A DNA stretch of 64,000 nucleotides, from NCBI RefSeq assembly GCF_031157375.1, contig NZ_JAVIFV010000001.1, positions 868,001-932,000 on the forward strand. The letters are read 5' to 3'. Both the position numbers and the translations under genes were made by a program. A model generated the notes under the pieces. That model was not told the origin of the DNA and searched no databases. It saw only the letters and a list, made by a program, of their open reading frames with translations. Of the stretch, positions 51,938 to 56,745 are shown in pieces. Each line of letters starts with the position of its first letter. The first letter of the stretch is position 1. The DNA is from Sphingosinicella sp. LHD-64. Its GTDB lineage: Bacteria > Pseudomonadota > Alphaproteobacteria > Sphingomonadales > Sphingomonadaceae.

Positions 51938-53038
51938 ATGGGCTTTCGTTGCGGAATCGTCGGGCTGCCGAATGTCGGCAAGTCCACCCTGTTCAACGCG
52001 CTGACCGAGACGGCGGCGGCGCAGGCGGCCAATTACCCGTTCTGCACGATCGAGCCCAATGTCGGTCGCGTCGCGGTGCCCGACCCGCGCCTGCAGGAGA
52101 TCGCGAAGATCGCGAGCTCGGCGCAGGTCATCGAGACCCAGCTCGAATTCGTCGACATCGCCGGGCTGGTGCGCGGCGCCTCGACCGGTGAGGGCCTCGG
52201 CAACCAGTTCCTCGGCAACATCCGCGAGGTCGACGCGATCGTCCACGTGCTGCGCTGCTTCGAGGGCGGCGACGTTACCCATGTCGAAGGGCGGGTCGAT
52301 CCGGTGGCAGATGCCGAGACGGTCGAGACGGAACTGATGCTCGCCGATCTCGAAAGCCTCGAGAAGCGCGTCCCCAACCTCGCCAAGAAGGCCGCGCAGG
52401 GCGACAAGGAGGCGAAGATCCAGGCGAGCGTCCTCGGCCAGGCGCTGGAGCTGCTGCGCCAGTCGAAGCCCGCCCGCCTCACCCGGCCGAAGGACGGGGA
52501 GGAGAAGCTCGCGCTCGAACGCGCCCAGTTGCTCACCGCCAAGCCGGTCCTCTACGTCTGCAACGTCGACGAGGGCGATGCAGCGAGCGGCAATGCCCAC
52601 AGCACCGCCGTCTTCGCCCGGGCCGAGGCGGAGGGGGCCGGGGCGGTGATCATCTCCGCCGCGATCGAGGCCGAGATCGCGACCATGCCGGCGGAAGACC
52701 GCACCGAGTTTCTCTCGGACCTCGGCCTCGCCGAGACCGGCCTCGCTCGCATCATCCGCGCGGGCTATGATCTCCTCCACCTCATCACCTTCTTCACCGC
52801 CGGCCCCAAGGAGGCGCGCGCCTGGACGGTCGAGAAGGGATCGAAGGCGCCCCAGGCCGCCGGCGTCATCCATTCGGATTTCGAGCGCGGCTTCATTCGC
52901 GCCGAGACGATCGCCTATGCGGACTATATCGCCTGCGGCGGCGAGGCCGGCGCGCGCGAGAAGGGCAAGCTGCGTTCGGAAGGCAAGGACTATGTGGTGC
53001 AGGACGGCGACGTCCTGCTCTTCCGCTTCAACGTCTGA
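51938..53038 (+). CDS. ychF: Redox-regulated ATPase YchF
   Basis: Universal P-loop NTPase of the Obg group that binds ribosomes and prefers ATP; 366 residues, full length. The P-loop GLPNVGKST is at residues 9-17. Switch and G3-like features are FVDIAGLVRGASTGEGLGNQ, and the G4 position reads NVDE rather than NKxD, which explains ATP preference in this family. The C-terminal TGS domain ends with FIRAETIAYADYIACGGEAG and the closing VQDGDVLLFRFNV. The intergenic space to its neighbours is short on the right (66 bp) and 118 bp on the left. Confidence 0.97.
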   Translation: MGFRCGIVGLPNVGKSTLFNALTETAAAQAANYPFCTIEPNVGRVAVPDPRLQEIAKIASSAQVIETQLEFVDIAGLVRGASTGEGLGNQFLGNIREVDAIVHVLRCFEGGDVTHVEGRVDPVADAETVETELMLADLESLEKRVPNLAKKAAQGDKEAKIQASVLGQALELLRQSKPARLTRPKDGEEKLALERAQLLTAKPVLYVCNVDEGDAASGNAHSTAVFARAEAEGAGAVIISAAIEAEIATMPAEDRTEFLSDLGLAETGLARIIRAGYDLLHLITFFTAGPKEARAWTVEKGSKAPQAAGVIHSDFERGFIRAETIAYADYIACGGEAGAREKGKLRSEGKDYVVQDGDVLLFRFNV

Positions 53039-53104: not shown

Positions 53105-54386
53105 ATGACCCATTTCCTTCCCAGGCTGGCGAGCGCGCTCCTGGCCATCTGCTTGCCGTTCCTTGCGGCTTGCGCGTCGGTGCCGCCCCGAATCTCCCCT
53201 GCGAGGGAGGCCAGGCCGCCGGTCACCATCCTGATCTCCATTGATGGCTTCCGGCCCGATTATCTGCGCCGCGGCCATTCGCCGCGCCTCGACGCGCTCG
53301 CCGCGGGCGGAGTCAGCGCGCCGATGCGCCCGTCATTCCCGTCCAAGACCTTTCCCAATCACTGGACGATCGTGACGGGCGATCGGCCCGACCGGCATGG
53401 CATCGTCGCCAACCGGATGGAGGATCCTTCCAGGCCGGGCGAGACCTTCGACATGCAGAGCGTCGACCCGTTCTGGTGGAACGCCGCCGATCTGGGTCGA
53501 CGCCGAACGGGCGGGCATCCGTACCGCGACGATGTTCTGGCCCGGCGCCAACGTCGCGTGGGGCGGCGCGCAGACGGTCGAACGGGCGGCGAGGATCAGC
53601 GGCGGCACACGGCCGAGCGACTGGCATCAATTCAGCATGGAGGTCTCGGCACGCCAGCGCGTGGACGCGGTGATCGACTGGCTGCGTCGGCCCGCCGCGA
53701 CCCGCCCGGCCTTCCTGACACTCTATTTCGACGCGGTCGATTCGGCCGGTCACGAGTTCGGACCGGGCGACCCTCGCACAGCGGAAGCGGTCGCCGGGAC
53801 CGACGAGGCGATCGGCCGGCTGGTCGACGAGCTGGCGGTGCTGCGGCAACCCGCCAATCTCGTGATCGTGTCCGATCACGGCATGGCGGCAACCAGCCCC
53901 GAACGGGTGATCGCCCTCGATCGGATCGCAAATCCGGCCGACTACCGGATCGTCGAGAAAGGCCCCTATGCCGCGCTGGAGCCGCAGCCCGGCCGGGAGG
54001 ACGCGCTCGCCGAACGATTGCTGCGGCCGCACGCGCACATGCAATGCTGGCGAAGGGCCGACATTCCTGCGCGCTTTCACTACGGCGCCAATCCGCGCAC
54101 GCCCTCCTTGCTCTGCCTGGCCGAGATCGGCTGGTCGATCATCCAGGATCTTCCGGCCGAGCACGTCCCTGCCGGCAGCCATGGCTATGACAATGCGGCG
54201 CCCGAAATGGCGGCGCTGTTTATCGCCAGCGGTCCCGCCTTCCGTTCGGGTCTCGCCTTGCCAGCCTTCGACAACGTCGATGTCTATCCCTTGCTCGCCC
54301 GGCTGATCGGCGTGACGCCGCGCGCCGGCGACGGGAATCCGGAGACGTTCGCGTCCGCGCTCCGTTTGCCTTCCACGGCGCGCTAG
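53105..54386 (+). pseudogene. Ectonucleotide pyrophosphatase/phosphodiesterase-like protein, frameshifted
   Basis: Two overlapping frames together encode a complete alkaline-phosphatase-superfamily NPP protein of about 425 residues. The 5' part (from 53105) has a lipoprotein signal with lipobox LAAC (C23), metal-binding D47 in SIDGFRPDY and the nucleophile T82 in PSKTFPNHWTIVTG. The 3' part, in the next frame from about 53487 to 54386, has PIWVDAERAGIRTATMFWPG, DAVDSAGHEFGPGD, IVSDHGM and GSHGYDN, which carry the remaining metal ligands. The break is at 53480-53487, where one extra base (or two missing bases) occurs. Codon style is normal in both parts, so it is a recent mutation or an assembly error. 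It is flanked by ychF and a convergent 5'-nucleotidase. Confidence 0.85.
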
Positions 54387-54394
54387 GCGCCTGC

Positions 54395-56146
54395 CTAGGG
54401 CGACTGTCGCGTGATGCGATCGGCGGGCGGCGGCGCAAGCGGGCTCGCGGCGGCGATGTAGCGCTCCAGCGCCTCCAGGTCCGACGGGCCCACGCGCGGA
54501 TCGGTGCCCTCGCGGAAGACCGTGAAATTGTCGCCCCCGCTGGCCAGGAAACTGTTCATCGTGACACGGTAGCTCGCCTCGTCCCGAAGCGGCACGCCGT
54601 CGAGGCGAAGATCGATGATGCGTTCGCCGGCCGGACGGGTGAGATCGTAGCGGTAGGTCAGTCCACGCGACGGCGCGAGCATGCCGGGGCGTGCCACGGT
54701 GTTGCTGCCGCTGTCGAACTGCTGCTCGAGCAGGGCGCGTATCTGGCGGCCGGTCATCGACTTGGTGACGAGGTCGTTGGCGAAAGGCTGGGCGGCGAAG
54801 AGCTGCCCATAGGTGAGGCTGCCGTCGGCCGCCGGGACGAGGTCGGCGCGCACGCCGGTCACGTTCATGAAGGCGATCTGCGCCCCGCCCGCGTCCGGCG
54901 CGCGGGTCGCGGCGAGCTGGGCGTCGGCGACGAGATTGCCGAGCACCGATTCGCCGGTCAGCGAGGCCTCGCGCGGCGCGGGTCCTTGCAGTCGGCCGAC
55001 GACACGCGATGTCACCCGTTGCACGGCCGCGACATAGCGGCCGACCAGCGACGCCACCCGCGGTTCGGGCGCATAGCGCGGGAAATCGTCCCGCAGCGCG
55101 AAGTCGTTATGGGCGACGCTCTGCACGATGAGATTGTCTGCGCGCCGCTCCAGCACGCGGCTGGCGGCGGGATCGATCGAAAGGTCGATGTCGGTCAGCA
55201 AGGTGCCGCTGCGCCCCGCACTGGTGACGAGGAACGGCCGGCCCGGATCGATGCGGGCATAATCGCAGACATAGGCGTTGTGCGTGTGGCCGGAGACGAC
55301 GAGGTCGACCTCGGGATCCAGTCTGGCGAGGATCGGCAGGAGCGGGCCGTCGATGCCGCCGCAGCTGTGATCGTTGTAGCCGACATCCGTCGACAGCCCC
55401 TGATGGATGACGACGACGATCGCGTCGGCGCGCTCGGCCCGCAAGCGCGGGATCAGGGCGTTGATCGTGTCGGCCTCGTCGCCGAAGGTGAGCCCGGCGA
55501 CGCCCGCGGGCGTCACGAGCGCCGCGGTCCCTTCCAGCGTCAGGCCGATGAAGCCGACCTTCACCTCGCCCGCACCCTCGCCGAAAGTGCGGATCACATA
55601 GGCCGGGAACAGCGTCTCGCCATTCTCGCGGCGGACATTGGCGGCAAGGAAGCGGAAGCGCGCGCCGGGGAAGTCCCGATCGACCTGGCAGGGCTGACGC
55701 GACGTGTGACGCTCGCAACCGCCATTCTGCATGCGCAGCAATTCCGCCGATCCGCGGTCGAATTCGTGGTTGCCGACCGCGTTGATGTCGAGGCCGATGA
55801 GGTTCATCGCGAGGATCGTCGGCTCGTCGAGGAAGGCGGCGGAGACGAGCGGCGAGGCGCTGATCAGGTCGCCGGCAGAGACCACGACATTGTTCGGATT
55901 GGCCGCGCGGCGCTCGGCGATCGCCGAGGCGAGATAGGCCGCCCCGCCTGCCGGCACGCGGACCTCGGCGCCATCCGCCGCGGTCGCCGGTACGGCCTGG
56001 CGCGGCGGCTCCAGCGCGCCGTGGAAGTCGTTGAAGGCGATGATCTTGACGCGAACGGGCGCTGCACCCGCGCGGTCCTCGATCGCACGCGGCCCGGCGC
56101 ATCCCGCCAGCGCCAGAAGAAGCGCGATCGCCAGCCTTGCCCGCAT
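54395..56146 (-). CDS. 5'-nucleotidase/2',3'-cyclic phosphodiesterase-type lipoprotein
   Basis: Calcineurin-like metallophosphatase that would dephosphorylate extracellular nucleotides. The 583-residue product starts at the ATG at 56146 with a lipoprotein signal (lipobox LAGC, C16). The N-terminal metallophosphatase domain has D40-x-H42 in FNDFHGALE, AVGNHEFDRGSAELL and SGHTHNAYVC, the dinuclear metal ligands. The C-terminal 5'-nucleotidase domain (about 380-560) contains ESVLGNLVADAQLAATRAPD and a substrate-binding SFLASGGDNFTVFREGTD. It converges with the neighbouring phosphodiesterase-like pseudogene and diverges from the MaoC-like gene, so the two phosphohydrolase genes may form a nucleotide-salvage pair. 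Confidence 0.94.
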   Translation of the reverse strand: MRARLAIALLLALAGCAGPRAIEDRAGAAPVRVKIIAFNDFHGALEPPRQAVPATAADGAEVRVPAGGAAYLASAIAERRAANPNNVVVSAGDLISASPLVSAAFLDEPTILAMNLIGLDINAVGNHEFDRGSAELLRMQNGGCERHTSRQPCQVDRDFPGARFRFLAANVRRENGETLFPAYVIRTFGEGAGEVKVGFIGLTLEGTAALVTPAGVAGLTFGDEADTINALIPRLRAERADAIVVVIHQGLSTDVGYNDHSCGGIDGPLLPILARLDPEVDLVVSGHTHNAYVCDYARIDPGRPFLVTSAGRSGTLLTDIDLSIDPAASRVLERRADNLIVQSVAHNDFALRDDFPRYAPEPRVASLVGRYVAAVQRVTSRVVGRLQGPAPREASLTGESVLGNLVADAQLAATRAPDAGGAQIAFMNVTGVRADLVPAADGSLTYGQLFAAQPFANDLVTKSMTGRQIRALLEQQFDSGSNTVARPGMLAPSRGLTYRYDLTRPAGERIIDLRLDGVPLRDEASYRVTMNSFLASGGDNFTVFREGTDPRVGPSDLEALERYIAAASPLAPPPADRITRQSP

Positions 56147-56295: not shown

Positions 56296-56745
56296 GTGAT
56301 CTATTTCGAGGATCTCGAGGTCGGCAGGGATGCCTATTTCGGCAGCTACGAGGTGACGCGCGAGGAGGTGCTCGAATTCGCGGGCAAATATGATCCGCAG
56401 GCCTTCCACCTCTCCGACGAGGCCGCCGCCAAGACCCATTTCGGCCGGCTCGCCGCCAGCGGCTGGCATACCTGCGCGATGACCATGGCGGTCATCGTCC
56501 AGCATCTCTCGAAGGGCGAAGGCCAGGCCGGCCTCGGCTCGCCCGGCGTCGACGAGCTCCGGTGGCTGAAACCGGTCTTCCCGGGCGACATGCTGCATGT
56601 GCATGGCAAGGTCGTCGAGAAGACGCCGTCACGCAGCAAGCCCGACATCGGCGCCTATCGCAGCGAGATGACCGTCACCAACCAGAACGACGAGTCGGTC
56701 ATGCGCTTCACCTCGATCGTGCTGATCCGGCGGCGCCCAGCCTAG
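56296..56745 (+). CDS. MaoC family (R)-specific hydratase-like protein
   Basis: Hot-dog fold enoyl-CoA hydratase-like protein, 149 residues with a GTG start that has GAGGAG about 10 bp upstream. The active motif is seen in EFAGKYDPQAFHLSDEAAAK, with the Asp/His (D and H of the YDPQ-FH segment) typical of MaoC. Further conserved parts are FGRLAASGWHTCAMTMAV and ELRWLKPVFPGDMLHVHGKV. Members hydrate acyl-CoA double bonds in fatty acid or polyester metabolism; the exact substrate is not known. The gene converges with the downstream lipoprotein gene (10 bp between stops). Confidence 0.92.
   Translation: MIYFEDLEVGRDAYFGSYEVTREEVLEFAGKYDPQAFHLSDEAAAKTHFGRLAASGWHTCAMTMAVIVQHLSKGEGQAGLGSPGVDELRWLKPVFPGDMLHVHGKVVEKTPSRSKPDIGAYRSEMTVTNQNDESVMRFTSIVLIRRRPA

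Follow-up and report, generated by a model that had tools for sequence, protein, structure and literature searches.

The nearest structurally characterized counterparts of the gene described here are the bacterial nucleotide pyrophosphatases/phosphodiesterases (NPPs) of PDB entries 2gsn, 2gso, 2gsu and 2rh6, together with the related 7mw8 and 7n1s. The 2gsn molecule, which we take to be the Xanthomonas NPP, is one continuous chain, and both of the gene fragments found in the window (the whole stretch of 64,000 nucleotides that was analysed) are colinear with it, over chain positions 4-97 and 93-388; the window's gene, in contrast, is divided between two frames at about chain position 97. The NPP orthologues of sphingomonads, among them those of Hephaestia caeni (locus L017) and Sphingomonas spp., are as much as 66% identical in the 3′ part and, unlike the gene in the window, occupy a single frame in every usable case. 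PDB structures of the animal ENPP family (ENPP1-7) are also matched by both fragments, with a similarity lower than that to bacterial NPP; these are intact eukaryotic ecto-enzymes, several of them with much longer chains, whereas the window's gene is broken. Threonine is given as the nucleophile of ENPPs (PMC11677397). The literature, judged by titles and the opening of abstracts, yielded no report on the present case.

One NPP gene in two reading frames

The initial annotation had proposed that a frameshift splits one NPP gene, and the profile comparison bears this out. PF01663, the type I phosphodiesterase/nucleotide pyrophosphatase family of the alkaline phosphatase superfamily, divides at profile position 89 between two frames, the 5′ piece matching positions 1-89 (E 2.9e-32, 113 bits) and the 3′ piece positions 89-342 (E 7.3e-54, 184.1 bits), each above the curated cut-off of 23 bits; no single continuous frame crosses the whole domain, its halves sitting in different frames. 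The frame break in the NPP gene is confirmed as real and not a product of chance and, as far as the sequence can tell, this would be a broken gene of the PF01663 family and not a functional member of it.

Frame 1, read from the ATG at 53105, encodes a hydrophobic N-terminal segment, which has a cysteine at residue 23 and is signal- or lipoprotein-like as judged by eye, followed by the first third of the NPP domain as far as ...DPFWWNAAD, where homology ends. Homology resumes at about 53487 in another frame as PIWVDAERAGIRTA... and continues through the stop codon at 54384-54386. Frame 1 itself stays open to 54190 (ORF 53105-54190), giving a product of up to 361 aa including a foreign tail, and blastp of the 233 residues of this tail against the 88 orthologues found no credible match (best E 0.82). 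The coordinates of these parts and of their neighbours are collected in Table 1.

Table 1. Features of the NPP locus and its surroundings, with positions counted from the first base of the window
Feature	Coordinates	Strand	Evidence
YchF-type GTPase, synteny neighbour	51938..53038	+	PF06071, PF01926; 93% identical beside NPP in G025
NPP 5′ part, in frame; D47, T82 at nucleophile position	53105..53488	+	PF01663; PDB 7mw8 12-136, 2gsn 4-97
Frameshift junction; WW-IW linker of 10 bases (53480-53489)	53480..53490	+	Orthologue linker lengths; -5 vs G025
NPP 3′ part, other frame; DSAGHE, SDHG, GSHGYD	53487..54386	+	PF01663; PDB 2gsn 93-388, E 1.4e-66
Tail of the 5′ ORF, out of frame and open by chance, non-homologous to the family	53490..54190	+	ORF; blastp of tail
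5′-nucleotidase/UshA-type metallophosphoesterase, convergent neighbour	54395..56146	-	PF02872, PF00149; 68% identical in G025
149-aa protein	56296..56745	+	Relative at most about 1 kb downstream of NPP in 55/79 genome_contigs loci (tblastn)

When the two NPP parts are numbered in series, with one X placed between them, D47, T82, D213, H217, D258, H259 and H360 are all kept, each in a column whose conservation across the 88 orthologues is 97% or higher; these residues have the metal-ligand and nucleophile roles in the family. D47, T82 and the motifs DSAGHE, SDHG and GSHGYD had been read from the sequence at the outset, and all of them are indeed present across the pair of fragments. Since the active site is divided, with D47 and T82 on one product and the other metal-ligand motifs on the other, family chemistry implies that both NPP products should be inactive.

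Relatives were taken from a set of 60 genomes to which the window's own belongs, with a match at E <= 0.001 in 12 of them, from the genomes of its genus that match at E <= 1e-50, and from the genome_contigs source, where the best 80 of 165 relatives were used. Eight of 96 loci were dropped (L001 and L015, both of them the window itself; the distantly related family members L011-L014; L016, without a match; and L077, without the 5′ part), leaving 88 usable orthologues. In every one of these 88, a single oriented open frame contains the two halves in order. A TAA inside the match of genome G025 (L008) is read as the normal end of that gene, whose ORF spans both halves and stops after 410 residues. 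Orthologues that naturally use two proteins, the finding that would have overturned the initial annotation, were thus sought and rejected (0 of 88). The window does contain an ORF with its own start codon that covers the 3′ part (53397-54386, 329 aa), as would be expected of a naturally split, two-protein NPP in which the 3′ part is translated from the ATG at 53397 or from another internal start. However, besides the uniformly unsplit orthologues, nothing in the family credibly matches the 31 residues that this ORF places before the junction (best E 0.36), and the 3′ piece would be without the N-terminal segment, D47 and T82, so that we regard a natural split as highly improbable.

Size of the indel and a plausible mechanism

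The linker between the WW and IW motifs has 10 bases in the window, as against 15 in 85 of the 88 orthologues and 12 in the other three; four of the 85 have a third W, and their linker has 15 bases when counted from the last WW. A separate alignment method gives a difference of -5 at the same point relative to the syntenic gene of G025, itself one of the 88. Because of these 15-base linkers and the -5 against G025, the most likely event would be a loss of five bases, rather than the one extra or two missing bases put forward in the initial annotation, which the same two comparisons disfavour. The frame change is identical for +1, -2 and -5, although an ancestor with a 12-base linker, as in the three exceptional orthologues, would imply -2. 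The comparison leaves some latitude in the ancestral letters, since identity to the window in the 3′ part is no higher than 61-66% even for the closest orthologues and the repeats that some orthologues have in the linker differ from one another.

The five bases would have been lost from the codons that separate the WW motif from the IW motif, a loss that would have put the last two thirds of the NPP protein out of frame. Slippage between short GC-rich repeats is a plausible route to such a loss, in which case the ancestor of the strain would have carried a tandem repeat of this kind. Among the 81 orthologues tested, a tandem five-base repeat is found in the linker of 15, and in 12 the linker becomes that of the window after some five bases are left out; seven orthologues have the tandem repeat and equal the window plus one repeat unit (L049, L055, L056, L059, L061, L062 and L063). 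Slippage is nevertheless the weaker part of the account, because L017 and L025, the nearest to the window by tree path, have no tandem five-base repeat in their linker.

A programmed frameshift or transcriptional slippage could in principle still yield the full NPP enzyme from the gene as it stands, and the coding signatures and catalytic motifs kept in both halves are what such recoding would lead one to expect. Yet a shift is needed in none of the 88 orthologues, and the conserved need in relatives that marks programmed frameshifts is therefore lacking. Moreover, there is no homopolymer longer than three at or near the junction, no familiar type of slippery site was seen there by eye, and no in-frame stop occurs close to it, frame 1 being open for some distance beyond; the chance that recoding rescues the enzyme seems very slim. 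A phase-variation-type on/off switch, in which lineage-specific recoding or repeat-length switching restores the enzyme in part of the population, is likewise scarcely credible. The reading that we prefer is a deletion, probably a recent one: the loss of five bases would have broken an NPP gene of the sphingomonad type.

Age of the break and the case for an assembly error

Conserved positions of the window's NPP were compared with those of the 88 orthologues by leave-one-out. Departures of the window number 1 in 40 strictly invariant columns (orthologue median 0; 11 of the 88 deviate at least as often), 2 in 86 columns conserved at 95% (median 1; 22 of 88) and 4 in 118 conserved at 90% (median 3; 41 of 88). 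The X placed at the junction, where the downstream frame reads the conserved P, accounts for one of them at each level; outside the junction 39 of 39 strictly invariant columns are kept, the pattern of a recent pseudogene with an inactivating change in an otherwise conserved sequence. Both parts have a coding-like GC profile over the three codon positions (.62/.57/.85 in the 5′ part and.71/.54/.83 in the 3′ part), which agrees with the normal codon use noted at the start, and in a tree of 33 rows, selected from 89, the end branch of the window (0.5) equals the tree median (0.5). The conserved columns and the branch length speak against old decay of the NPP gene. Given the conserved columns, the coding-like GC and the median end branch, either the break would be recent or the gene would be intact in the organism; the initial annotation had posed the same pair of readings, recent decay or an assembly error, and the kept invariant columns and coding-like GC support it.

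The second of these readings is that the organism's NPP is intact and that sequencing or assembly error removed bases from the consensus within a GC-rich stretch. The absence of other decay (39 of 39 columns, coding-like GC at third positions, median branch) is just as expected of an intact gene. On the other hand, the likely difference is one of five bases with no homopolymer longer than three nearby, and a five-base difference without a long homopolymer is unusual for base-calling errors.

A control survey set 400 kb of the window's genome (G000), centred on the region of the window, against 400 kb of G025. Its loose first version gave 10 junctions in G000 (251 matched G025 ORFs) and 8 in G025 (255 matched G000 ORFs), numbers that on our reading were inflated by shadow ORFs, and its 50% identity threshold excluded the NPP gene. 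After removal of overlapping shadow ORFs, the refined survey found nine frame-changing junctions in 8 of 117 genes of G000 and, in the reverse comparison, three in 117. The NPP gene is the only one of the eight in which codon-position GC, judged by eye, is normal in both fragments. In genes 352 and 103 it is less clear, and these are taken to be over-extended starts. Among the 117 genes compared with G025 there is thus no other clearly coding-type frame change, two being less clear, which also speaks against an assembly error at the NPP gene. A generally poor assembly was considered as well and rejected, the 117-gene sample having no general frameshift problem; the assembly comprises 8 contigs and is 99.98% complete.

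We consider an assembly error unlikely, though a good deal less so than recoding or a natural split. A true mutation is favoured over it, since a five-base difference without a homopolymer longer than three better fits a slippage-type deletion, and we infer that the frame change is present in the organism and not merely in the assembly. The locus would then illustrate neatly how a small deletion looks before other decay sets in. Damage of this kind is commonplace and the gene, of a secreted type, is an ordinary one; the finding has little significance beyond annotation, where the gene should be recorded as a frameshifted NPP and not as two proteins.

Other copies and genomic neighbourhood

No second close copy of NPP was found in the genome, which has one match at E <= 0.001 and otherwise only a 37-base match on contig C4. 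A family search of the genome added two PF01663 matches: one that is long and more distant, at C1:1254877-1256184, and another on C4 that is marginal, scoring 19 bits alone and 24.9 with its neighbours against the cut-off of 23. If the break is real, the strain has lost its only close NPP, and the distant PF01663 protein and the adjoining 5′-nucleotidase gene remain.

The surroundings of the gene are shared with G025, where, in addition to the GTPase and the 5′-nucleotidase (Table 1), an upstream 829-aa protein (80% identity) and the 149-aa protein (71%), putatively MaoC-like, are conserved. Of the 57 loci L017-L073, 53 have a relative of the 149-aa protein just downstream of NPP; YchF is matched in the flank of 28 of the 79 genome_contigs loci, these flanks being only about 3 kb long. 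The window contains no tRNA genes. For the 5′-nucleotidase neighbour, all NCBIfam matches are below their cut-offs. Its gene sits between NPP and the 149-aa gene both in the window and in G025 (L100), and none of the 79 genome_contigs orthologue loci, again with flanks of only about 3 kb, has a match to it. It is possibly an insertion common to the window's genome and G025.

The window's NPP is up to 66% identical to the NPP of Hephaestia, as compared with 50-61% for its genus relatives (L002, L005 and L008). In the tree its row falls into a 21-row set (99/97) that also contains Hephaestia, Sphingomonas and others and stands apart from the genus relatives, with no settled placement inside the set. 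The identity of the neighbouring YchF, in contrast, is 89-93% in G001, G007 and G025 and 78-83% in three Hephaestia loci. This discrepancy between NPP and YchF could stem from rapid evolution in the relatives or from in-place replacement of the gene. The NPP gene is also patchy within the genus, a match at E <= 1e-50 being present in five of the 26 genomes searched, the window's own counted.
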